Assembly (NCBI RefSeq): GCF_900105415.1
Contig: NZ_FNSM01000001.1
Coordinates: 992,001-1,056,000 of the forward strand
From: Streptomyces sp. TLI_105
GTDB taxonomy: Bacteria; Actinomycetota; Actinomycetes; Streptomycetales; Streptomycetaceae
DNA length: 64,000 nt
Direction of reading: 5' to 3'
Part shown: piece by piece, positions 13,066 through 24,109 of the stretch
Layout: every line of letters starts with the position of its first letter
Position numbering within the stretch: position 1 is the stretch's first letter
Notes under the pieces: generated by a model
Database searches by the model: none
Seen by the model: only the letters and a program-made list of their open reading frames with translations
What the model was told of the DNA's origin: nothing
Program-made: the position numbers and the translations under genes

Positions 13066-13615
13066 ATGGGGCGGGGTACGTGGAGTTGGATTGTTCCGGA
13101 CGGGCTGTGGGAAATCGCGAAGCCACTGATCCCGCCGTCGAAGGTACGGCCACAGGGCGGCGGGACGCAGGACACGCCTGATGAAACGCTGTTCGCCGCG
13201 ATCATCTACGTGCTGGTGTCCGGCTGCGCCTGGCGGGCTGCCACCCTGCTTCGGGGTCTCGAAGTCGACAGCCCATCGCCGGTTCCTGATCTGGTCCCGT
13301 GCCGGAGTGTGGGGCCGGCTGCACGAGGAGATCCTGCACCGCCTCGACGACGCCAGCCTGCTCGACCTGTCCCGGGCGGCGCTCGACTCCGCCCACGTCC
13401 GGGCGGGAAAAGGGGGTGAACTCATCGGTCCGAGCCCTGTGGACCGGGGCAAGCCGGGTTCCAAGATGCACGTCCTGTCGGACGCGAACGGATTGCCCCT
13501 CCTCGTCGGCGTATCGGCCGCCGACACCCATGACAGCCAGGCCCTGAAGCCCATGGTCGCGGGTCTCCAAACGAAACACGACCCCTACCGCGGCCGCCAT
13601 TTCAAGCCTCAGCGC
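13066..13615 (+). pseudogene. IS5-family transposase, 3'-truncated
   Basis: The first frame (MGRGTWSWIVPDGLWEIAKP) carries the IS5-type N-terminal domain up to VSGCAWR. The next part continues in a second frame from about 13230 (FGVSKSTAHRRFLIWSRAGV), with the DDE first Asp region (LDSAHVRAGKGG) and the DANGLPLLVGVSAADTHDSQ region. A two-frame layout is normal for this group, but the sequence stops at GRHFKPQRLH, before the catalytic Glu region, where it joins an IS701 fragment. Non-functional. Confidence 0.8.
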
Positions 13616-14213
13616 CTGCACGACGACATGCGCGACTATGTCGCCGAACGGCTCGGGCCGGGCCCTGGTGGACCGGGAGCTCTACCTGCCCAAAGCCTGG
13701 ACATCCGACCGCGAACGCTGCCGGGCCGCGAAGATCCCTGACGAGCGGGGCTTTGCGACCAAGGGCGAACTGGCCCGGGACATCGTCCGCCGCTGCCTCA
13801 CCGCCGGCCTGCCCGCCGCATGGGTCACCGCGGACGAGGCCTACGGACAGGACTGGCACTTCCGCCGCCTGCTCGAGCAACTCGACATCGGCTACGTGGT
13901 GGCGGTGCCGAAATCCCAGCAGATCAAGTCCCTGGCCGGTATCTGGCGCATTGACCAGCTCATCGAAGAAGCAACGGCTGTCCTGCGGCAACGGAGCAAA
14001 GGGGCCACGAGTCTATGACTGGGCCACGGCCAAGCTGCCCGCCAACCTCATCTTCGATCCCGACCCGCCGGCACATCACCGCTGGGTCATGGCCCGCCGC
14101 AGCATCTCCGACCCCGGCGAGATCGCCTACTACCTCACCTACGCTCCCGTCGACGCCGAGATCGCCGAGCTGGCCCAGATCGCCGGCTCCCGCTCCTGGA
14201 CAGGGACGTGAAG
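13616..14213 (+). pseudogene. IS701-family transposase fragment (plus strand)
   Basis: Starts mid-gene with DDMRDYVAERLG, then jumps to RALVDRELYLPKAWTSDRER. The segment carrying the usual DDTGF active-site motif is deleted; that motif is visible in the opposite-strand copy. The rest reads CLTAGLPAAWVTADEAYGQD and RRSISDPGEIAYYLTYAPVD, with one frame change near 14000. It ends at about 14213, where it meets the tail of the inverted IS701 copy. Confidence 0.8.
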
Positions 14214-15242
14214 GGGTGCGTAGGCGAGGTAGTAGGCGATCTCATCGGGTTTGCTGATGCTGCGCCGGGCCGGCGCCCAGCGCATCCGCTGGGGGGACCT
14301 CGCCCTGGTAGTCGAACTCGGCGACGGCCGGCAACCGCACCGCTGCCCAGTGGTAGACGCGGGGCCCTTCGCGCCGTCGTAGCATGAGATCTCATCCCGC
14401 GCTTCGTCCGGGGCCTGCGCGAACAGAACATCGATCCGTGAACAGCCCACACTGAACTGTGACTTGGGGACCGCCAGCACATAGCCGACACCTGACTGTT
14501 CCAGTAGCCGGCGGAACCGGTTGTCCTGACCGTAGGCGGAATCTGCGGCGCCCCAGGAGATGGGCAGCGGCGAGGCGAGGGCCCGCAGCACGATGTGCCG
14601 GGCCAGTTCGCCCTTGGTGGCGAACTCCCGCTCGTCGGGGACCCTTGCGGTGCGACAGCGTTCCCGGTCCTCGGTCCAGGACTTCGGGAGGTAAAGCTCG
14701 CGGTCGACCAGGGCCCGGCCGCGGGCGGAGGCGTAGGCGGCGAAGACGCCGATCTGACAGTTCTCGGTCCGGCCGGCGGTTCCGGAGTACTGGCGCTGGA
14801 CCCCGGCCGAGGTGGTTCCCTTCTTGATAAACCCGGTGTCGTCGATGATCAGCACGCCGCCGTCCTCGCCGAGTTTGTCGGCGACGTACTCCTGCAGGTC
14901 GTCTCGGATGTCATCGGGTTCCCACTTCGCTCCGGCAAGGAGGTTCTGCAGGCCGTCGGGCGTGCGGTGGCCGGCCTGCTCGGCCAGCTGCCAGCTGTTC
15001 TTCCGGGCCACCGGGGCGAGCAACCCGCGCACGTAGTCACGCATGCGGCGGCGGAGCTCGACTCGGCCGAAGCGATGCCCGACGGCCAGGGAGAGATCGT
15101 CCAGTTCGAGGTCCCACTGCGCGGCGGCATGCTCGGTGATCACCCTCGGAGGCTGCCCCGCCGCTGTCGCCACCTGCGGCGTTGTCGCACGATCGAGGGT
15201 GGTCTCCGTGAGACCGGGCCCGCACGACCGAAGTCCCGCCAC
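14205..15242 (-). pseudogene. IS701-family transposase (minus strand), C-terminus lost
   Basis: Nearly full N-terminal two-thirds of an IS701 transposase, probably starting at the GTG at 15143 (VITEHAAAQWDLELDDL) although the frame is open to 15242. LIIDDTGFIKKGTTSAGVQR holds the first catalytic Asp, and KGELARHIVLRALASPLP and WGAADSAYGQD follow. Two compensating frameshifts garble ~14290-14350. The true frame recovers at RRSISKPDEIAYYLAYAPL, and the gene then stops at the junction with the oppositely oriented fragment. Inactive. Confidence 0.8.
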
Positions 15243-15295
15243 ACTCCCGTCACCCGACGAAAGACCAGGTCAGACACCGAAATCCTGCTGGAGTA

Positions 15296-15440
15296 CTAGC
15301 TGTCCCACGTCCAGTCCGTGACCTCGGGCATGTCCACGCCGTGCTCGCGGATCCACGCGTGGTGGCGCTGCAGGGCGTCCGCCATGTGCTGGCGTACCCC
15401 GGCTGCGCGGACGGCGAGGCCGGGGAGCTGGAATCCCTCG
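15296..15440 (-). pseudogene. C-terminal tip of a phosphoketolase
   Basis: About 40 codons ending HAWIREHGVDMPEVTDWTWD then S and a TAG stop. The family's C-terminal signature is a Tyr/Ile-x-Arg-Glu-His-Gly-x-Asp stretch followed by a DWTW end. The rest of the ~790-aa enzyme is absent. It ends at the left edge of the IS701 debris. Confidence 0.6.
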
Positions 15441-15498
15441 GCGCGGCCGCACGGCTCCGGCACGCCGCCAGGGACCACGGGCGGCGACCCGGCCGACT

Positions 15499-15660
15499 CG
15501 CGAGGCGGCCGACGCGGGCCGCGGCGACGTCTTCCTCGAACTGGCGCGGCAGTACGCCGCCAGCGGCGCGTACCCGTGGGAGCGGTGCGAGCCCTGGGGC
15601 ATGGAGTCGGACGGCCACCCGTCCGGCACCTGGTCCGGCACCGTCACGGAGGCGGACTGA
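15499..15660 (+). pseudogene. C-terminal fragment of a TPR/Sel1-like repeat protein
   Basis: Reads REAADAGRGDVFLELARQYA, then SGAYPWERCEPWGMESDGH and a stop. The AADAG-x-LARQ pattern is that of helical repeat proteins common in Streptomyces. No upstream repeats remain, because the fragment abuts the phosphoketolase fragment on the other strand. Confidence 0.45.
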
Positions 15661-15847: not shown

Positions 15848-17230
15848 GTGATCGACCGTATCTGGCTTCAACCACCCCTCGCCATCGCCCGGTTGGGTTC
15901 CTCGCCGATGCCGTGCGACAACTACCGCTACGGACCCAGCGACCTGACCCCGCGCGGTACGGGCAAGACCACCGTGGAGCCGGTGGAGAGCCTCGACCTC
16001 GCCGCCGACGGCAGCCTGACCACGCGGATGCCGCAGAAGGTCCGGTTCAAGGACGCGGACGGCTGGCGGCCGGTGTGCCCGTTCTTCGAGGTGCACGGCA
16101 GCTGGACCACCGCCGACGGCGAGCAGCGCACGGGGGTCCTCACCGCCGACGTGCTCGCCGGCTTCGGGCTGGGCCTCGGCGACGTGCGCTGGCAGGTCTC
16201 CGTCGCCAACCTCAAGGCCCACCACATCACCCAGCGGCAGGACGACCGCGTCGAGGCCCGGGCCGAGGTCCGTGGCGACGACCACCAGCGGCACCCGCTC
16301 GCCGGGCACTCCCCGCAGGGCACCGCCAACCCGCTCGTCCCGGCCGGCAAGTCCCTCCCGCTCGGCTCGGTCCAGGTGCCCGCGCCGAACGCCGAACTCC
16401 CCGAACTCCGGCTGCGGTTCACCCCGGGGAAAGGATTCGTGTACGGGCCGACGAACCTGGCCGAGCTCGCCGCGAACACCGGGTACCAGCTCCCGCAGGA
16501 GCGGCTCATCCTCAATCCGGCCGCGCAGTGGTGCCGGTTGAAGCTCAGAGACATCAGAGATGATGAACGGACCTCGCCCCCCGGCCTGTTCGCGGGCGCG
16601 GAGCGGCAGATCCAGGCCAGCCTGGGCATGGTCGACGACGTCTGCGACGGCACGGTCGCCGTGACCCTGCCGGGAGGTCTCACCGCCACCGCCCGCATCG
16701 TGGTCAGCCCGCCCGACTTCGCACCGGACCGCAGGCCCTTCGTCTCCCTCGCGGACGGACTCGCCGACCGGGTCAAGCGCGCCGAAGTGAGCGACCCCTC
16801 CTACATCGCCGACGAGGGACAGACCGCGCTGGAGATCCGTGATCTCTTCGAACGGGTCCTCGAAACGATGGGCAACATGAACGTGGACGTGCAGAACCAG
16901 CGCGTCCTCGACACCTACGAAGGGGTCGCGTGGACGGTTCCCGAACCGCTGACCGGCGTTCTCCTCGCGCTCACCGACCGCGGTCGTCGGCGCCACCGCC
17001 GCTTCGTCGCCCTCGAGGCTCTGGAAGACATGGTGCGTGAGCAGCCCGATCTGCTCGACCGCGTGGTACGGCCACCGGCCGAGGACCTGCCGCCCAGCTA
17101 CACCGACCGCCGCATGCCGATCGGGATGCGCGGTGCCGACGCTGGACCGCTGCACCTGACCCGACGGCAGTACGACCTGCTGACCGCCTGGGCCCAGGGC
17201 CTGCGTGACAGGACGGAGCCGGGCACGTGA
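15848..17230 (+). CDS. LodA/GoxA-like protein, N-terminal half (split oxidase subunit 1)
   Basis: 460-aa protein starting at a GTG with AGGAGGTG just upstream. Its motifs line up in order with the N-terminal domain of LodA-type cysteine-tryptophylquinone oxidases: LQPPLAIARLGSSP (residues ~6-19), a substrate-pocket-like region, WQVSVANLKAHH, ELRLRFTPGKGFVYG, MVDDVCDGTVAVTL and IVVSPPDFAPDRRPFVSLAD. LodA-family proteins are ~700-750 aa and place the quinone-forming Cys/Trp in the C-terminal half. That half is missing here but appears in the third gene of the operon. The stop overlaps the radical SAM start (GTGA). I infer that it pairs with the third gene product. The homology call is from remembered family motifs and needs a profile search. 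Confidence 0.65.
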   Translation: MIDRIWLQPPLAIARLGSSPMPCDNYRYGPSDLTPRGTGKTTVEPVESLDLAADGSLTTRMPQKVRFKDADGWRPVCPFFEVHGSWTTADGEQRTGVLTADVLAGFGLGLGDVRWQVSVANLKAHHITQRQDDRVEARAEVRGDDHQRHPLAGHSPQGTANPLVPAGKSLPLGSVQVPAPNAELPELRLRFTPGKGFVYGPTNLAELAANTGYQLPQERLILNPAAQWCRLKLRDIRDDERTSPPGLFAGAERQIQASLGMVDDVCDGTVAVTLPGGLTATARIVVSPPDFAPDRRPFVSLADGLADRVKRAEVSDPSYIADEGQTALEIRDLFERVLETMGNMNVDVQNQRVLDTYEGVAWTVPEPLTGVLLALTDRGRRRHRRFVALEALEDMVREQPDLLDRVVRPPAEDLPPSYTDRRMPIGMRGADAGPLHLTRRQYDLLTAWAQGLRDRTEPGT

Positions 17231-18642
17231 CCGTACTCCTGCAGATCGGGCGGCGGCCCCCGGACGTCCCCGCACAGACCACGAGCCCGCTGCCGGCCGG
17301 GCCCGGAGCGCAGGTGCGGGCCTTCCGGAGTGCGCACGGGGCCCATCTCTTCGTCGCCGACGGCAGCCGTCTGTACGACCTGCCCGAGGCGACGGCGGTC
17401 CGGCTGGAGGAGTGGCTCTCCGCCTCGGAGGGCTCCCTCGACGAGCTGGGGCGCACACTGGACCTCCCGCTCTGGGGGGCACCGCGGATCGACGGCACTC
17501 CCCTCGCACCGCCTCCGCTGTCCTCGATCTCCCTCAACGTGATGCAGGCCTGCAATCTGAGCTGCGGTCACTGCTACGCCGACGAGGGCCGGTTCGGGGG
17601 AAGCGCCCGGGCGATGCCCCGGGCCACCGCGTACGCGGCGGTGGACCGGCTGCTGGCCGAGGCGGCGCCCGGCTCGGACGTCGTCGTGGGCTTCATGGGC
17701 GGCGAACCGCTGCTCGCCCGCGACCTGGTGCACGAGGTGGTCCGGTACGCCGTCCGGGCGGGGGCCACCACCGGGCACCGGGTCCGCTTCGCGCTCACCA
17801 CCAACCTGACGACCGTACGGCCCGACGACGCGGCACTGTTCGCGGAGCACCCGTTCACCGTCACGGTCAGCCTGGACGGCGACCGGACCGGCCACGACGC
17901 CCTGCGCAGGGCGCCCGGCGGAGCCAGCGCATACGACCGGCTGCGGGCCGGGCTCGACACGCTCGCCCGCCACGGCCGCCCCCGCCACCTCTCCGCGCGC
18001 GTCAGCGTCACCCCGTACACCGGCCGCCTCCTGGACATCCTGGAGCACGGCATCGCGCTCGGCTTCGACGAGGTCGGGTTCGGTGCGGTGGTCAGCGCCC
18101 CGGACCCCGCGTACGAGATCACCGCCGAGGCCTTCGCGGGCTTCCTCGAGCAGATGACCGCCTGCGGCGAACGGGCCCTTGCGGAGCTGTCGGCCGGCCG
18201 CGCCTACCCGTTCGGCAACTTCCAGACCGCCATGGAGCAGCTGCACCGGGGCGCCCACCGCCCCTACCCCTGCGGGGCCGGCGCGGGCTACCTCAGCGCC
18301 TCCGCGGAAGGGGGCCTCTACGCCTGCCACCGGCTGGTCGACGACCCCGCCTTCGCCATGGGCTCACTGGCCGCCGGACCCGACACCGCCGCCCGGCAAC
18401 GGCACCTGGCCGAACGCCACGTGGACCGGCAGGAGCCCTGCCGGTCCTGCTGGGCCCGCTACCTGTGCGGCGGCGGCTGCTACCACGAGGTCAGCCGACG
18501 GGGCCGGCCCGGCTGCGACTACATCCGCGGTTGGCTGTCCTTCTGCCTGCGCGCCTACGTCGAACTCGGCCAGGCCGCACCCGAGTTCTTCGAGCAGCGG
18601 TCCGCGGCGGCCCCGCTCACGAGCAGTGCCAGCACCGTCTGA
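17227..18642 (+). CDS. Radical SAM/SPASM peptide-modifying enzyme
   Basis: 471-aa maturase that should use S-adenosylmethionine and a [4Fe-4S] cluster to modify a protein side chain. Residues ~1-90 form an N-terminal recognition-like region. The cluster motif CNLSCGHC has Cys109, 113 and 116, followed by GFMGGEPLL (SAM-binding GGE). A SPASM-type C-terminus carries Cys at ~349, 367, 405, 408, 414 and 418 plus later ones, enough for auxiliary clusters (EPCRSCWARYLCGGGC). The motif spacing and CYADEGRFGG loop resemble maturases of quinohemoprotein amine dehydrogenase (QhpD type), which install thioether cross-links. It overlaps the gene before it by GTGA and lies 20 bp before the next. The likely substrate is the product of gene 1 or gene 3 (inference). 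Confidence 0.85.
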   Translation: MTVLLQIGRRPPDVPAQTTSPLPAGPGAQVRAFRSAHGAHLFVADGSRLYDLPEATAVRLEEWLSASEGSLDELGRTLDLPLWGAPRIDGTPLAPPPLSSISLNVMQACNLSCGHCYADEGRFGGSARAMPRATAYAAVDRLLAEAAPGSDVVVGFMGGEPLLARDLVHEVVRYAVRAGATTGHRVRFALTTNLTTVRPDDAALFAEHPFTVTVSLDGDRTGHDALRRAPGGASAYDRLRAGLDTLARHGRPRHLSARVSVTPYTGRLLDILEHGIALGFDEVGFGAVVSAPDPAYEITAEAFAGFLEQMTACGERALAELSAGRAYPFGNFQTAMEQLHRGAHRPYPCGAGAGYLSASAEGGLYACHRLVDDPAFAMGSLAAGPDTAARQRHLAERHVDRQEPCRSCWARYLCGGGCYHEVSRRGRPGCDYIRGWLSFCLRAYVELGQAAPEFFEQRSAAAPLTSSASTV

Positions 18643-18662
18643 AGGCCCGAAGGAGCCCGTCC

Positions 18663-20549
18663 ATGCCCGACCTGCCGACTCCCACTGGGAAGATCCTCCC
18701 GCGCAACCTCACCGCGCGGGCCGACCACGTCGTACGCGGCAACCCCTCCAACACCCGCCCGGAGAGCGGGGTCGACAACTGCTTCCCGGGGCTCGAGTTC
18801 GACCAGCGCAACCTCGACAAGGCCTTCTTCCCCGGGATGCTCTTCGACTTCCACCGCTACAACGGTTCCCGGGCGCTGGAGGTGACCGGCGGGGTGGCCG
18901 CCGCCCACGGGCTGACCACGGCGGACCTGACGGGCGACAACCAGGTCTTCATCGGGGCCGTGTGCGGCCGGACCCGGGTGGACCAGACCGACGCCCAGGT
19001 CGAGCCGGTCGACTGCCGTGAACGCGACGGCCTGGATGTCTGGCGGCAGGTGCACGATCTGCTGCCGGGCCGGATCGCCGTACTCCTGCTGGGGCGCCAG
19101 ACAACCGTCGCCACGCTCGGAGCCGCCGCGGTCGGCAACCTCAACGCCCTGCGCATGAGCGGTGAGAGCTTCGTCCGCCGTGCCCCCGACGGCCGGTTCC
19201 AGCTGGCCGTGCTGGTCTCGGACCGGGCCCGGTACCTGGACGAGAACGGGGTCATCGACCCGGAGGTGTACCAGCCGGGAGACCTCACCCGCAGCCTGTG
19301 CGCCCCCTGGCAGTACGACTTCCGTGACTGCGGCTGCTTCTACTGGGCCGCCTCGAAACCCGACGTCGCCGGCAACGCCGACGAGAGCATCCCGCAGATG
19401 AACTTCCTGCGCGCGGACCGCACACCGGTCCCGGACCTCGACACGGACGCACTGGACCTCGGCAGCCCGCGCAGGCGGCTGGAGCTCGGCTACCCCCGGC
19501 TGATCTCCGACTGGCAGGTGCTGCCCGTGGTGCTCAACGACCGCGAGGACGACAGCATCGGCAACCCGGTGCCGCCCGACATCCCGCTCCTCGACCGGGC
19601 GACCGTGATCAGCAGGCTCAAGTCACTGGCCACCGTCGAGCACGCACTGAGCGTGGAGTACCTGTACGCGCACTACTCGCTCAACGCGCCCAGGGAGCTG
19701 CCGGATTCGGCGAGTCGGCTGATGCGGCGGATCCACGCCGCGGCCTTCGAGGTGTTCGAGGTCGCGGTCGACGAGATGCGGCACCTGCGCTGGGTGAACG
19801 AGGCCCTCGGCACCCTGGGCGAGAAGCCCGTCGTCGGGCGGGCGGCGGAGATCGTGCGCGACACGGTCCACCCCTTCGAGCTCCGCCCGCTGACACCCGC
19901 GCAACTGCAGTGGTTCATCGACGTGGAGGCCCCCAGCCAGCAGGTGGGCACCGGCCTCGACGGCATGTACGTCCAGCTGCACCGGAGCATCATCAAGCAG
20001 CCGGACGTGTTCCCCGAGGCCGACAGGCTGGCCCACCTGATCAAGCTCGTCATCGACGAGGGCGAGGAGCACTTCCGTCGGTTCACCGCGGTGAAGGAGC
20101 ACTTGGCGGGCCTCGATCCCCTCGTGTACCTGCGACCCCTGCGGCAGCCGGGCGCGCAGGACGAGCTGGGCCGGGCGCTGCTCGACCTCAGCGACCGGTA
20201 CTACGCGGCACTGCTCGGCACCCTGCAAGCCACCTTCGCACTCGGCGACCAGGCCGGTGGTCTGCTGATCGGCCAGGCCCGGGTCACGATGGAGAACCTC
20301 CACGAGATCAACCACCTCCTCGCCACCCGCGGCATCGCGCCCCGCTTCACCCTGCCCCCGGCCTTCGCGCCGGGCGCGGGCGAGCTGCCGCCCGAGCTCG
20401 CCGACGGCCAGGCCACCAGGGAAGCGGCCATCGCGGCGATCGAGACCCTGGCCGCCATTCGGGAACTCGAAGGGGACCTGAGAGACATCACGATCAGTCA
20501 GCAGTTCGAAACCGCGGCTCTGCTGGACGTACTGGACCTTCAGGGATGA
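18663..20549 (+). CDS. LodA-like C-terminal half fused to a ferritin-like diiron domain
   Basis: 628-aa protein starting at an ATG with GAAGGAG upstream. Residues 1-~290 look like the second half of LodA-type oxidases: NCFPGLEFDQRNLDKAFFPG (Cys40), then GDLTRSLCAPWQYDFRDCGC and FYWAASKPD, giving Cys213, Trp216, Cys223, Cys225 and Trp228 as candidates for a quinone or thioether modification. Residues ~310-490 form a ferritin-like four-helix domain with metal ligands in TVEHALSVEYLY (~326), VDEMRHLRWVNE (E-x-x-H) and DEGEEHFRRF (E-x-x-x-H type), similar to the diiron domains of VioB/RebD-like proteins. The C-terminal ~130 residues are helical. The four-residue overlap with the next gene implies one complex or pathway. 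Confidence 0.7.
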   Translation: MPDLPTPTGKILPRNLTARADHVVRGNPSNTRPESGVDNCFPGLEFDQRNLDKAFFPGMLFDFHRYNGSRALEVTGGVAAAHGLTTADLTGDNQVFIGAVCGRTRVDQTDAQVEPVDCRERDGLDVWRQVHDLLPGRIAVLLLGRQTTVATLGAAAVGNLNALRMSGESFVRRAPDGRFQLAVLVSDRARYLDENGVIDPEVYQPGDLTRSLCAPWQYDFRDCGCFYWAASKPDVAGNADESIPQMNFLRADRTPVPDLDTDALDLGSPRRRLELGYPRLISDWQVLPVVLNDREDDSIGNPVPPDIPLLDRATVISRLKSLATVEHALSVEYLYAHYSLNAPRELPDSASRLMRRIHAAAFEVFEVAVDEMRHLRWVNEALGTLGEKPVVGRAAEIVRDTVHPFELRPLTPAQLQWFIDVEAPSQQVGTGLDGMYVQLHRSIIKQPDVFPEADRLAHLIKLVIDEGEEHFRRFTAVKEHLAGLDPLVYLRPLRQPGAQDELGRALLDLSDRYYAALLGTLQATFALGDQAGGLLIGQARVTMENLHEINHLLATRGIAPRFTLPPAFAPGAGELPPELADGQATREAAIAAIETLAAIRELEGDLRDITISQQFETAALLDVLDLQG

Positions 20550-21544
20550 GCCGCCCCGTCGAGATCGGCGGGGCCGGACTGGCGGAGCTGACCTGCGCCC
20601 GGCTACTGGCCGGGCGCGGGCACCGGGTCCGGCTGCCGCCGCCCGGGCCGGGCACGGCGGGGGCGGGCGCCACGGGGGCTCGGCCACTGCTGCTCGCCGG
20701 GCCGACCCTGGAGCTGCTGGACTCCCTGTGGGGTCCGGGACTCCTCGAGGGGACCTGGGAGGTGACGCACCGTCAGGTACGCTGGGGCGACGGGCCGCCG
20801 ACCCGGTTCGCGCAGGCCGGCCGGGTGGTGGACGGAGCCGAGGTGGCCGTCCGCATGCGGGAGCGGCTGGCGGAGCACGGCACGGACGAGGGGCGCACGG
20901 CTCCGCCGGAGGGACCGCCCGGCTGGGTGGTGACCGCCCGTGCGGTGCCCGAACGGGCCGCCGGGCGGCGGCGGTTGCTGGCCGGGACGGCCCCGCTGCG
21001 CCCCGGTGCCGACGAGCGCACCGCCGTCCTCGGCACCGCCGAAGCGGGCTGGGCGCAGCTCACCCCGCTGGGGCGCGGCGCCGCCCTCGTACAGGCCATG
21101 GTGCCCGGTCCGGCCGGGGACCCCGTCGCCCTGCTCGCCCGGCTGGCCGCCGAGACCGGTCTCGGGGCGCTCCTGCGCCACCCGCCCCGGTCCGCCGCCG
21201 CCGTCCCGGCCGCCCCGCTGCTGCACCCGGCCCCCGCGACGGCACCCGCCGGGGACGCCCCGGGCCGGCTGCTGGTGGGGGCCGGAGCCATCCGCTACGA
21301 CCCCCTCAGCGGCACCGGAACCGCGCAGGCCCTGCGTACGGGCATCCTCGCCGCCGCCGTCATCGACGCGGCCGTGCGGGGGACCGCGGCGCCCCGTGCG
21401 CTGTGCGCCCACTACGCCGCCCGGCTGCGCGCGGCCTACGCCGAACACCAGCGCAGCTGCGCCCGGTTGTACGGGAGCGCCTTCGCCGGACCCGCCTGGT
21501 CCGACGAACTCGACGGCGCCCGGAACGCCGTCGCGGTCGGCTGA
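20546..21544 (+). CDS. Small FAD-dependent monooxygenase-like protein
   Basis: 332-aa flavoprotein starting at an ATGA overlap with gene 3. IGGAGLAELTCARLLAGRGH is the dinucleotide-binding loop. LLVGAGAIRYDPLSGTGTAQ matches the second FAD motif of the aromatic-hydroxylase/halogenase group, though the usual GD is replaced by GA. The middle of the protein is short: relatives such as LodB or QhpG are ~370-430 aa. Flavoproteins of this type hydroxylate the tryptophan during formation of protein-derived quinones (LodB for LodA, QhpG for the amine dehydrogenase). By position I assign it as a maturation oxygenase for the split LodA-like enzyme. The missing acidic residue could mean altered or lost FAD binding. 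Confidence 0.65.
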   Translation: MSRPVEIGGAGLAELTCARLLAGRGHRVRLPPPGPGTAGAGATGARPLLLAGPTLELLDSLWGPGLLEGTWEVTHRQVRWGDGPPTRFAQAGRVVDGAEVAVRMRERLAEHGTDEGRTAPPEGPPGWVVTARAVPERAAGRRRLLAGTAPLRPGADERTAVLGTAEAGWAQLTPLGRGAALVQAMVPGPAGDPVALLARLAAETGLGALLRHPPRSAAAVPAAPLLHPAPATAPAGDAPGRLLVGAGAIRYDPLSGTGTAQALRTGILAAAVIDAAVRGTAAPRALCAHYAARLRAAYAEHQRSCARLYGSAFAGPAWSDELDGARNAVAVG

Positions 21545-21559
21545 CTCCCTCGACCGCCT

Positions 21560-22266
21560 ACGGGTCGCACGAGGGGCGCCAGGTCAGGTGCGGCAGGAGG
21601 TCCCGCCCCTGCTGTTCGGGGATGCCGACGACCCCTTCCAGGGCGTCGTCCCACCGGAGTACATCCCCAACCGGATCACCATCCCCACGCTGGAGGAGAT
21701 CCACGCGCCCAAAGAGGTCGGGTCCAAGGCTCTCGTCGTCATCATCGACCTGATGTCCGGGTGTGGGCACCGGAACGGAGAGGCGTTCGCAGCCAACCTC
21801 GAAGGGATGGTGGCCAACGACGTGTACCGCATCACCGAGCAGATCGAGGGGAAGGCCCGCCAGCGTTCCCCGCTCAAGCACCGCAGGGCCGACGACTTCC
21901 GCGAGGTCCCCATGCCGGCCACGGTCCGGGAGTCCCTCCTCAGCTACGCACACGACGTCGGCGCGGACCAGAATGGCTTCCTCCTGCGGACTCAGCGCAG
22001 CGCCTACCGGGCACACACGACGCTCGACCACCAGTGGAGCGCGGCCAGGAAGCGGGCCGGCATCACACGGAAGCTGAACCCGTACTCCCTACGCCACTTC
22101 TTCGCCTCGAACTGCCCGTCCAGGGGAATCCCCATCACCGATGCAGCTGAGTGGATGGGGCACTCCAACACCAACATGGCATACCGCATCTATCGCCACC
22201 TCATGCCGGCATCAATCGGGCGCGCAGCCAAGGTCTTTGAGGCCGGGCTCTCACGCGAAAACACTA
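21560..22266 (+). pseudogene. Phage-type integrase, N-terminus missing
   Basis: Reads as the C-terminal ~235 residues of a tyrosine integrase: RITIPTLEEIHA, GCGHRNGEAFAANL (first catalytic Arg), FREVPMPATVRESLL, YSLRHFFASN, WMGHSNTNM and YRIYRHLMPASIG (Tyr). The usual HxxR box is YxxR here. There is no start or N-terminal DNA-binding domain, because the reading simply begins after the flavoprotein stop. The tail after residue AGL changes character at an insertion-sequence-like end (CTAGGGCCTGTCCGGCGGAT, about 22264-22283). Non-functional remnant marking the right border of the LodA-like operon. Confidence 0.8.
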
Positions 22267-22341
22267 GGGCCTGTCCGGCGGATCATTTCGGGCTGATGCA
22301 GGGCACGCCTGGTACGGCTGAGTCGTCGTGGGCCGCAGCAG

Positions 22342-22866
22342 TCACGCGAACGAGGGCCACCGGTCGGCGGCCCACTCCCGCCAGTCGACCCACCCGGGCG
22401 GCGGGCCGGCGACCCTGCGGCCCTCCAGTTCCGCCGCGTCGGGCTCCTCGAAATGCGCCCGCCCGTGCATGATGTCGGCCTCGGACATCGGCAACGTCTC
22501 CTCTGGGGTGGTCGCCCAGCGGTGGGCGATACGGGCGCGTTGGGTCTCATCGTCCACCGGCAGGTAGACCATGCGGAAGCATGCCTCCTCGGCCTCCACC
22601 AGCCAGCGGATCGCAGAGCGTTCGTCCCGTGACCAGCAGCCGTAGTCCACGACGACGTTGGTGCCCAGTCTGACCGCCTCCAAGGCGAGCCAGAGCATGC
22701 GCCCCTCCAGCACGTCGCGCTTCCCGTCCGCCTCCGCCTCGCCGAACAGGGGAATCATCCAGTCGTCGGGCGTCAGGCGCAGCGCGCCGTGCTCGGCGGC
22801 GAGCTGCCGGGCTCGCGTGGTCTTTCCGGCTCCTGGCAGGCCGACCATCAGGAACAACGTGGTCAC
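22342..22866 (-). CDS. P-loop kinase-like AAA ATPase
   Basis: 174-aa predicted small-molecule or nucleic-acid kinase. The N-terminus MTTLFLMVGLPGAGKTTRAR holds a clear Walker A (GLPGAGKT). LTPDDWMIPLFGE is the typical acidic follow-up of zeta-toxin/APT-like kinases, and NVVVDYGCWSRDER contains the Walker-B-like Asp and an Arg-rich lid. The family phosphorylates small molecules or nucleotides; I cannot name the substrate. It stands alone with ordinary codon use between an integrase remnant and an IS110 copy. Confidence 0.8.
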   Translation of the reverse strand: MTTLFLMVGLPGAGKTTRARQLAAEHGALRLTPDDWMIPLFGEAEADGKRDVLEGRMLWLALEAVRLGTNVVVDYGCWSRDERSAIRWLVEAEEACFRMVYLPVDDETQRARIAHRWATTPEETLPMSEADIMHGRAHFEEPDAAELEGRRVAGPPPGWVDWREWAADRWPSFA

Positions 22867-22923
22867 GCCCCGATCGTGGCAGGGAAGCCGATCAGACGAC
22901 CACTGCTTTGTCTGCCCGCCCGA

Positions 22924-22989
22924 TCATGGGCTGAGCCACAGCCGGATGGAGGCCACGGCGACAGTGCCGTGGAAGACGTAGACGCGCTT
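22924..22989 (-). pseudogene. IS5-family transposase, C-terminal end (split by IS110)
   Basis: The last 21 codons KRVYVFHGTVAVASIRLWLS then P and a stop match the end of an IS5-group transposase whose earlier part lies at 24337-24625. Joining ...SRAVATRYD at 24337 to KRVYVFHG at 22989 restores the family sequence in frame. Confidence 0.8.
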
Positions 22990-23005
22990 GATGCCCCTAT
23001 GGATG

Positions 23006-24109
23006 TCAAGCAGCCAGGGCTTGGTCCTGGGACGTGGTGTGGGCTCGGATGATGATCGTGTAGAGCTCTCGGGCGACGTAGCGTTTGAGGCAGCGGATGG
23101 CTTCGCGTCGTGTCTTGCCTTCGGCGATGCGTCGCTCGACGTAACTGCGGCTTCGGGTCTCCCAGCACAGTCTGGCCAGAACGATGGTGCAGAGGGCCGA
23201 GTTGGCCTGTCGGTCGCCACCGCGGTTGAGTCTTCTGCGCTGGGTCTTGCCGGAGGAGGCTTCGACCGGGCTGACGCCGCAGAGCGAGGCGAAGGAGGCC
23301 TCGCTGCGGAGTCGCTCGGGGGTGTCGCCTGTGGCGATGAGGAGCGTTGCCGCGGTGTCCGGGCCCACTCCGTAGCACTCGAGCAGTTGAGGTGTGTGCC
23401 GGCTGATCACGTCGGTGATCTGCTGTTTCAGGGCTGCGATCTCGTCATCGAGTTCCTCGACGCGCCGGGCCAGGAGCCTGAGCGCGAAGACGGCCGCGGC
23501 TGTGGCCGTGCCGGCCGCGGTCTTCGGCAGTGCGATGCGGGCACGGACGAGCTTGGGAATGGTCAGTTTGTCCAGAGGCTCTCGTAGGTCTGGATTCGCC
23601 GTCACGAGGACGGCCCGGAGCTGGTTGATGGCCTGGGTGCGGGCTTTGACCCCGGAGACCTTGGCCATTTTGAAGAGCCGGAGTGCTTCGGCCGGGCCGT
23701 CCGCGAGCTTCGCCGTCGCGGTGGCCCGGCCGGACAGCACGGCATGCGCTGCCGCCTCGGCATCGATGGCGTCGGTCTTGCCCCGGCGGCGCCGGGTGGC
23801 CTTGTCCGGCTGGTTCACCTCGATCACCCCCACACCGCTGCCCCGCAGGAAGCGGCTCAAGGCGGCTCCGTAGGAACCGGTGCACTCCACTCCCGCTCGG
23901 TCCACCGTGCCGTGCGAGCGTGCCCAGTCAAGCAGCTGCCGGTAGCCGTCGGACGTGGCGGAAAAGCTGCAGGAAGCAATCAGCTTGCCGGTCGTGGAAA
24001 CGACGGCTGCCACGTGTGCGTCCTTGTGCGTGTCGACGCCGAGCACGACCTCCCGGTGGCGGTGGTGGTGGTGCAAGCGGGTCGGCCGGGTCACGCCGGC
24101 ACTGGTCAT
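23006..24109 (-). CDS. IS110-family transposase/recombinase
   Basis: 367-aa DEDD-type recombinase. The N-terminal RuvC-like domain has VLGVDTHKDAHVAAVV (first Asp), AGVECTGSYGAALSRFL (Glu) and KTDAIDAEAAAHAVLSG (two Asp). After a coiled-coil middle (RRVEELDDEIAALKQQITDV), the C-terminal Transposase_20-type domain reads GVGPDTAATLL and GVSPVEASSGKTQRRRLNRG, with the serine region expected for catalysis. The length is typical and the frame undamaged. It starts at the ATG at 24109. The family inserts without inverted repeats and, in studied members, is guided by an RNA from the element's own non-coding end. Confidence 0.9.
   Translation of the reverse strand: MTSAGVTRPTRLHHHHRHREVVLGVDTHKDAHVAAVVSTTGKLIASCSFSATSDGYRQLLDWARSHGTVDRAGVECTGSYGAALSRFLRGSGVGVIEVNQPDKATRRRRGKTDAIDAEAAAHAVLSGRATATAKLADGPAEALRLFKMAKVSGVKARTQAINQLRAVLVTANPDLREPLDKLTIPKLVRARIALPKTAAGTATAAAVFALRLLARRVEELDDEIAALKQQITDVISRHTPQLLECYGVGPDTAATLLIATGDTPERLRSEASFASLCGVSPVEASSGKTQRRRLNRGGDRQANSALCTIVLARLCWETRSRSYVERRIAEGKTRREAIRCLKRYVARELYTIIIRAHTTSQDQALAA

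Follow-up and report, generated by a model that had tools for sequence, protein, structure and literature searches.

A putative split LodA-type oxidase operon in Streptomyces with a probable QhpD/QhpG-type maturation pair and a ferritin-like diiron partner

Sections of PMC7876137 describe two routes to the cofactor cysteine tryptophylquinone (CTQ): quinohemoprotein amine dehydrogenase (QHNDH) uses a radical SAM enzyme and a double hydroxylase, and LodA/GoxA use a flavoprotein and partial self-processing. A four-gene operon of Streptomyces sp. TLI_105, in a window of 64,000 nucleotides (the whole stretch of DNA analysed here; contig NZ_FNSM01000001.1, positions 992,001 to 1,056,000), raises the question of which route would serve an oxidase whose LodA-like body is split between two genes, with a radical SAM gene between them. 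We consider it probable that the operon encodes a two-protein LodA-type CTQ oxidase that is matured by a QhpD/QhpG-type pair and accompanied by a diiron partner. This reading draws on split LodA homology, the alignment of cofactor residues, the kinship of the maturases, conserved linkage and a diiron-type ligand set, all of which the sequences show; from these we infer the chemical steps, the pairing of the two oxidase proteins, the substrate and the role of the diiron domain. Searches of an open-licence paper library brought up no published description of such a split, radical-SAM-matured system. The features that the argument needs are as follows.

15848..17230, + strand: gene 1 (G1, 460 aa), putative N-terminal part of a LodA/GoxA-type oxidase
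15851..15898, + strand: G1 residues 2-17, IDRIWLQPPLAIARLG, a LodA_N motif that also resembles the start of QHNDH alpha-subunit domain IV
17227..18642, + strand: gene 2 (471 aa), QhpD-like radical SAM/SPASM protein, predicted Cys-Asp thioether synthase for gene 3
17551..17574, + strand: CNLSCGHC, the radical SAM Cx3Cx2C motif
18268..18480, + strand: SPASM-region cysteines (PCGAGAG ... CRSCWARYLCGGGC), common to gene 2 and QhpD
18663..20549, + strand: gene 3 (G3, 628 aa), putative C-terminal part of a LodA-type protein in fusion with a ferritin-like diiron domain
18699..18722, + strand: PRNLTARA (G3 13-20), N-terminal element and possible maturase recognition site, like PxNxKA of the QhpC leader
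18777..18797, + strand: NCFPGLE (G3 39-45), counterpart of QhpC C7...PGWE16, with a possible third thioether C40-E45
19299..19364, + strand: C213-APWQY-D219-FRD-C223-G-C225-FY-W228-AASKP-D234, with the predicted CTQ pair C223-W228, the conserved Asp D219 and the predicted thioethers C213-D219 and C225-D234
19581..20351, + strand: ferritin-like helical domain, G3 307-563, with the diiron-type ligand set E326, E371, H374, E422, E466 and H470
20546..21544, + strand: gene 4 (332 aa), QhpG-like FAD protein, predicted peptidyl-tryptophan hydroxylase for W228

The sequence-only reading of this DNA had described genes that overlap or lie 20 bp apart, and the spacing is a 4-bp overlap, a 20-bp gap and a further 4-bp overlap. 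Genes 1 and 2 start with GTG and genes 3 and 4 with ATG; AGGAGG/AAGGAG boxes precede genes 1 and 3. The motifs on which that reading relied could also be located: the LodA-type N-terminal motifs of G1 (IDRIWLQPPLAIARLG, VANLKA and PPDFAPDRRP), and CNLSCGHC at residues 109-116 of gene 2, which it took for a radical SAM/SPASM enzyme. The LodA-type C-terminal motifs of G3 are likewise present (NCFPGLE, residues 39-45; CAPWQYDFRDCGCFYW, residues 213-228), with one correction: CAPWQ lies ~210 residues into the gene and does not open it as had been stated.

Single-sequence searches with genes 1 and 3 against solved structures gave no match, and family profiles were required. The G1 profile matches GoxA chains with E values of 1.9e-8 to 6.4e-8 and LodA with 6.8e-4, and the G3 profile matches LodA with an E value of 0.04 (LodA 496-532), behind a bacterioferritin (5e-4) that matches its ferritin part. 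In profile-profile comparisons (HHalign) against 14 ordinary LodA-like proteins, G1 falls on profile columns 61-330 (98.7-99.3%, E 1.9e-16 to 9.5e-21) and G3 on columns 502-623 (94.1-95.3%, E 1.2e-7 to 2e-8), so that one match follows the other along the profile without overlap; the alignment is insignificant for the last third of G1 and the first 190 residues of G3. Single sequences stay below the Pfam cut-offs (LodA_N in G1, 14.5 bits, cut-off 26.3; LodA_C, PF18417, in G3, 24.9 bits, cut-off 25), PF18417 and PF12902 both match in 30/30 members of the G3 alignment (E up to 0.1), and the NCBIfam equivalogs for LodA and GoxA are not reached (15.4-15.5 bits, cut-offs 600 and 750). LodA/GoxA come first in a fold search (Foldseek) with the predicted G1 model; the same search for G3 is dominated by ferritins, and the LodA part of G3 is therefore not judgeable from its fold. 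By these profile comparisons the LodA similarity of genes 1 and 3, as claimed in the sequence-only reading, is beyond chance.

LodA-type proteins are single polypeptides, which average 738 aa in PMC4417212. With the oxidase in two proteins and a radical SAM gene between, we class the system as a related variant that is neither LodA nor GoxA. Some gene-3 homologues already bear the automatic NCBI name "LodA/GoxA family CTQ-dependent oxidase"; other homologue records read hypothetical protein or ferritin-like domain-containing protein. G3 residues ~54-190, inserted between C40 and C213, are predicted to be well folded, with an order of strands and helices that may recall a PDZ domain.

The match between G3 and LodA covers the cofactor site. 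In LodA (3weu) it reads ...PGDLTKRMACPWQAD512FFNC516 (numbers counted along the printed chain), and its G3 counterpart is PGDLTRSLC213APWQYD219FRDC223GC225FYW228AASKPD234. D219 and C223 align by profile match with LodA D512, which we take to be the catalytic Asp, and C516, and also with GoxA D678 and C682 (...D678AASC682...SWW697AANLP, again counted along the printed chain). W228 falls in HHalign on the Trp of the ...FWxAxxPN motif of ordinary LodA-like proteins and corresponds to GoxA W697 by the same count; we equated it with LodA W581 by way of GoxA and the LodA-like proteins, since W581 lies outside the printed alignments. The CTQ of LodA is formed from C516 and W581 according to a section of PMC4417212, and a section of PMC7876137 gives GoxA D678 as the catalytic Asp. 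The putative cofactor residues of G3 can be named from these alignments as C223 and W228, with D219 as the conserved Asp, and this Cys, Trp and adjacent Asp of LodA/GoxA are invariant in 30/30 members of the G3 alignment. An earlier candidate for the CTQ Trp, W284, chosen by its spacing of 61 residues from C223, was dropped because HHalign placed W228 on the LodA-like FW.

The remaining residues of this loop point to QHNDH. QhpC, its small subunit, has thioethers Cys7-Glu16, Cys27-Asp33 and Cys41-Asp49 and a Cys37-Trp43 CTQ in a section of PMC8172795, with Cys41-Asp49 and Cys37/Trp43 given likewise in part of PMC7876137. As reference we used a Mameliella QhpC (L084), from a genome in which a split-LodA operon is found as well (L024). 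The numbering of this QhpC was checked against 1jju_C, and its site is C27-QPMEA-D33-LYG-C37-ADP-C41-W-W43-PAQVA-D49. The G3 site, C213-x5-D219-x3-C223-x-C225-x2-W228-x5-D234, matches one for one the QhpC residues of two thioethers installed by QhpD (C27-D33, C41-D49) and of CTQ (C37-W43). A joint pattern occurs in 121/121 G3 sequences (that of the window and the best 120 of 626) and 119/120 QhpC sequences (the best 120 of 768), compared with 0/14 ordinary LodA-like proteins and 0/200,000 shuffles of gene 3. The count of 14 leaves out L058 and L082, which have LodA_C matches that the anchor pattern failed to place; scanned later as stretches, both lack the joint pattern. Among 10,596 six-frame open reading frames (ORFs) from the locus DNA collected by that stage it was present in 63, namely one QhpC and 62 G3, where a single gene was often counted at more than one locus. 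The two extra cysteines, C213 and C225, occur in 0/14 ordinary LodA proteins.

Other likenesses between G3 and QhpC are looser. A P.N..A.A pattern lies within the first 45 residues of 118/121 G3 sequences and in 20/120 QhpC leaders, and taken alone its positions agree in 74 (P), 93 (N) and 93 (A) of 95 placeable QhpC rows (25/120 dropped), which is suggestive only of a recognition element common to the two. One ordinary LodA-like ORF (L083, G416) has a short CTQ-type Cys-Trp loop and a D six residues past the second Trp (DFAACAGSWWPVPRPDD), without the extra cysteines, and may be a possible intermediate. A qhp operon and a split-LodA operon coexist in the Mameliella genome that supplied the reference QhpC (G314; L084/L091 and L024), where the two maturation pairs presumably must stay specific.

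The enzymes encoded by genes 2 and 4 were compared with known maturases in a subset chosen for diversity, of five radical SAM proteins and seven flavoproteins. QhpD (TIGR03906) is the best NCBIfam family for 5/5 radical SAM proteins, with 272.7 bits for gene 2 of the window and 335.9, 308.6, 271.6 and 276.1 bits for the others; gene 2 has both the radical SAM Cx3Cx2C and the SPASM cysteines, and over 382 columns it shows 35% identity with the QhpD encoded beside the Mameliella qhpC. For the flavoproteins, QhpG is the best family in 7/7, over LodB and GoxB, and its cut-off (NF049967, 240) is passed in 2/7 (L074, 279.9 bits; L078, 284.6 bits). Gene 4, which had been called FAD monooxygenase-like, carries the motifs GGAG and DPLSGTG and likewise scores best with QhpG (41.3 bits, compared with 22.9 for GoxB and 13.4 for LodB). 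Among solved structures the L074 flavoprotein has its best relative in 7ctq, a peptidyl tryptophan dihydroxylase. Public plasmid records annotate the flavoproteins of L074, L075 and L076 as tryptophan 7-halogenase; because the L074 protein exceeds the QhpG cut-off, a peptidyl-Trp hydroxylase appears more likely there. In a section of PMC7876137, QhpG adds both oxygens to the Trp of thioether-linked QhpC, and LodB/GoxB use an already mono-hydroxylated Trp. The sequence-only reading had proposed that the operon combines both maturation logics. That proposal is supported, with a refinement: the two logics are not evenly mixed, since the flavoprotein scores best with QhpG, and a LodA scaffold with Qhp-type maturases is the more exact description.

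The radical SAM scores also bear on the alternative that survives best, which we nonetheless regard as unlikely: that G3 is a ranthipeptide-like modified protein whose thioethers form structural or metal-binding rings, with no quinone, the flavoprotein acting otherwise, for example by a single hydroxylation. The family ranked second for 5/5 radical SAM proteins (219-267 bits; 219.5 for gene 2) is PapB, a maturase that makes Cys-Asp thioethers, and gene 4 is short and divergent; both points would suit such a protein. However, the invariance of the CTQ residues, the QhpG-like character of every flavoprotein tested and the lack of any evident reason for G1 to keep a LodA fold favour a two-protein CTQ oxidase.

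Neighbourhood conservation, which the sequence-only reading had put forward as a check and whose absence, like that of LodA similarity, would have refuted it, is extensive. A scan of genome contigs gave 40 loci, of which 33 hold gene-3 relatives; the other seven (L035-L041) match the ferritin part only and were set aside. The order gene 1-radical SAM-gene 3-flavoprotein is complete in 31/33 of these long-form loci, from Actinomycetota, Cyanobacteriota, Planctomycetota, Pseudomonadota, Nitrospirota and Chloroflexota, a set that includes near-identical Streptomyces copies and several metagenome-assembled genomes whose taxon is possibly wrong. One of the two incomplete loci is a remnant without a radical SAM match (L032) and the other is cut by a contig end (L033); the flavoprotein of L023, counted here, was missed with single-sequence queries. 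Within the genus, matches are confined to 6/295 genomes and include one short form; a scan of plasmids gave 19 matches, of which six were opened. L089 has a broken gene 1, in two frames.

Seven loci (L073-L078, L085) show a different order, [ferritin-like]-gene 1-short gene 3-radical SAM-flavoprotein. Here 6/7 gene-3 frames stop soon after the LodA part, that of L077 being read as a stop-to-stop frame only, and a ferritin-like gene is directly upstream in four loci (Pfam-checked in L074-L076, by profile only in L077), divergent in one and not found in two. In the long form the ferritin-like domain is clear: PF12902 matches gene 3 with 45 bits (cut-off 22.3), its diiron-type residues are invariant in 30/30 alignment members, and it is among the most confident parts of the AlphaFold model. 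Fusion in the long form and neighbouring genes in the short form argue for a functional tie. The addition of a diiron domain seen in the sequence-only reading thus applies to the long form and not as a fixed part of the system, of which the diiron protein is a frequent partner. The same domain, with a weak NCBIfam match of gene 3 to VioB (14.8 bits), might suggest that the diiron centre is the catalyst and the LodA-type parts mere scaffold, G3 acting chiefly as a diiron oxidase or oxygenase, similar to VioB, in some biosynthetic pathway. We think this improbable, since 6/7 short gene-3 frames end soon after the LodA part while the radical SAM and flavoprotein genes are kept, and in two of the seven short-form stretches the ferritin-like gene was not found at all.

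As a control we examined 12 stretches around ordinary LodA genes away from split operons, up to ~6 kb per side and several cut by contig ends. A flavoprotein relative was present in 10/12, and neither a radical SAM gene (searched with a profile of the operon radical SAM proteins plus one QhpD) nor the cross-link pattern was detected in any of the 12; the extra cysteines thus accompany the radical SAM gene. In a tree of the LodA_C region, 40 split and 14 ordinary sequences separate at 100/100; the short form makes one group (99/98), and the long form is weaker (73/74). That gene 4 makes the CTQ in the manner of LodB/GoxB while the radical SAM enzyme has another target could draw on the relatedness of LodB/GoxB to QhpG, and on the near-equal scores of the L012 flavoprotein with both (97.4 versus 87.2 bits), but is hardly likely given that C213 and C225 accompany the radical SAM gene in every case and are lacking from 14/14 ordinary LodA, that ordinary LodA neighbourhoods lack such a gene in the 12 stretches examined, and that this gene separates the two oxidase halves in 31/33 long-form loci and comes immediately after both in 7/7 short-form loci.

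Several observations count against a two-protein CTQ oxidase with Qhp-type maturases. All 5/5 radical SAM proteins are under the TIGR03906 cut-off of 453, 5/7 flavoproteins are under the QhpG cut-off (41.3 to 97.4 bits), and gene 4 (332 aa) matches QhpG over about half its length only. AlphaFold gives pLDDT <50 at G3 residues 209-235 and a model without confidence at G1 residues 288-314. The joint pattern was drawn up after both families had been seen, and the inner spacings differ (C37-x3-C41 in QhpC, C223-x-C225 in G3). HHalign of QhpC against G3 picks exactly the cross-link register as best, which is non-significant alone (P 0.18), and a Pfam scan found no match to PF08992, the QHNDH gamma subunit, in G3. 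An Asp at the D234 position also occurs in 2/14 ordinary LodA (L057 and L083), so the exclusive features are the two cysteines only. A long branch joins split and ordinary forms in the tree, and the tree tool flags a possible false join. Finally, position 40 is Cys in 120/121 long forms (119 by pattern and P0083 by eye; P0059 has Ser), but C40 is absent in 3/7 short forms (L077, L078 and L047, the same gene as in L085), and the possible third thioether, C40-E45, is for this reason doubtful.

With these points weighed, we still favour the two-protein CTQ oxidase and propose the following mechanism. The oxidase body would be cut in two, G1 being the N-terminal part and G3 the C-terminal part with the cofactor site and a fused diiron domain. 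The QhpD-like radical SAM enzyme would tie the G3 cofactor loop by the Cys-Asp thioethers C213-D219 and C225-D234, and perhaps by C40-E45; the QhpG-like flavoprotein would then hydroxylate W228, which would cross-link to C223 to give CTQ. Mature G3 would pair with G1 to form a LodA-like active site that could oxidise a primary amine to an aldehyde or keto acid with release of NH3 and H2O2, as an amine or amino-acid oxidase, and the diiron domain might consume peroxide or O2 or perform a coupled oxidation.

In the window the operon is framed by mobile-element genes (13181-15242 and 20940-24109): DDE transposase pieces upstream (PF01609, PF13546) and, directly downstream, a phage-integrase-like frame (PF00589, frame 20940-22472) that overlaps gene 4 out of frame, with an IS110-type transposase. 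A small P-loop kinase-like protein (PF13671, AAA_33) is encoded at 22342-22866 on the - strand; its zeta-toxin-like match is weak and stays below the cut-off. No gene family was seen to flank the operon at all loci, and most clusters, judged by reading, were the operon itself in a wrong frame. Five loci have an ordinary, unsplit LodA-like gene within ~10 kb of the split operon (L004 13098-15347, cut by the contig end; L023 2-1831; L029 15014-16978; L030 3071-5017; L089 ~13100-15600, weak profile matches only), adjoined in 4/5 by a flavoprotein relative. Five loci share a flanking protein family of ~500 aa close to the operon (L030 506-2053, - strand, with relatives in L023, L027, L029 and L034); its L030 member has no Pfam match. 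A tyrosinase-family gene follows the short-form operon in L073 and L078, with a multicopper oxidase gene in L078; the like is reported from Bradyrhizobium for some clusters of ordinary lodA.

We also entertain, at somewhat less than even odds, the idea that LodA/GoxA and QHNDH are one family, the LodA N-terminal domain deriving from or with QHNDH alpha domain IV and the CTQ domain from QhpC. The operon would then be a living intermediate that keeps the pieces apart and retains a thioether-caged loop and QhpD/QhpG maturases, with quinone and diiron centre in one polypeptide. Against a common origin, a scan of 30 gene-1 proteins (E up to 10) brought no match to the family of QHNDH alpha domain IV, HHalign gave P 0.045-0.079 for gene 1 with one alpha sequence and P 0.01 for ordinary LodA with two (a third, L092, was dropped because the motif was not found), and Foldseek ranks 1jmx_A, a QHNDH alpha subunit, only 44th (E 0.48).

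If our reading of the operon is correct, radical SAM thioether chemistry would reach beyond a subunit of 80 residues to an oxidase of 628, and the product would be a quinone-plus-diiron enzyme; the predictions C213-D219, C225-D234 and C223-W228 stand at residue level. PapB/SCIFF ranthipeptide maturases resemble gene 2 in being radical SAM/SPASM enzymes that make Cys-to-Asp/Glu non-alpha thioethers, but their substrates are short peptides, and we know of no oxidase or flavoprotein partner for them. A section of PMC8172795 terms papB homologous to qhpD. Ferritin-like proteins of PF12902 are known from Caulobacter (CC_0557, 3hl1) and as part of VioB, whereas G3 carries the domain in fusion after a putative quinone site. 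Ferritin-like (in fungi), catalase and pfam14518 domains are listed in PMC4417212 as adjoining ordinary LodA proteins or fused to them. With QHNDH the operon shares the kind of radical SAM enzyme and of flavoprotein, the arrangement of Cys-Asp and Cys-Trp pairs seen in QhpC, the division into separate subunit proteins and possibly, in G1, a relative of alpha-subunit domain IV. It differs from QHNDH in that a Pfam scan of the four genes shows neither a di-heme cytochrome nor a beta-propeller subunit nor a protease, and in that the cofactor subunit has 628 aa in the long form, or ~260-300 aa in annotated short forms, compared with ~80 aa for QhpC. With LodA/GoxA and LodB/GoxB it shares the G1 fold, the cofactor site PGDLT..(x)PWQxD...C ... 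W, the conserved Asp and a flavoprotein gene that ends the operon, and it differs in its two polypeptides, its radical SAM gene, its two extra invariant cysteines, a flavoprotein that fits QhpG better than LodB, and a CTQ Cys-Trp distance of five residues in G3 rather than 65 (LodA) or 15 (GoxA). It is likely that the operon links two CTQ enzyme families that are regarded as separate, in which case QHNDH-type maturases and cross-link residues on a LodA scaffold would reveal the connection between the two routes to CTQ.

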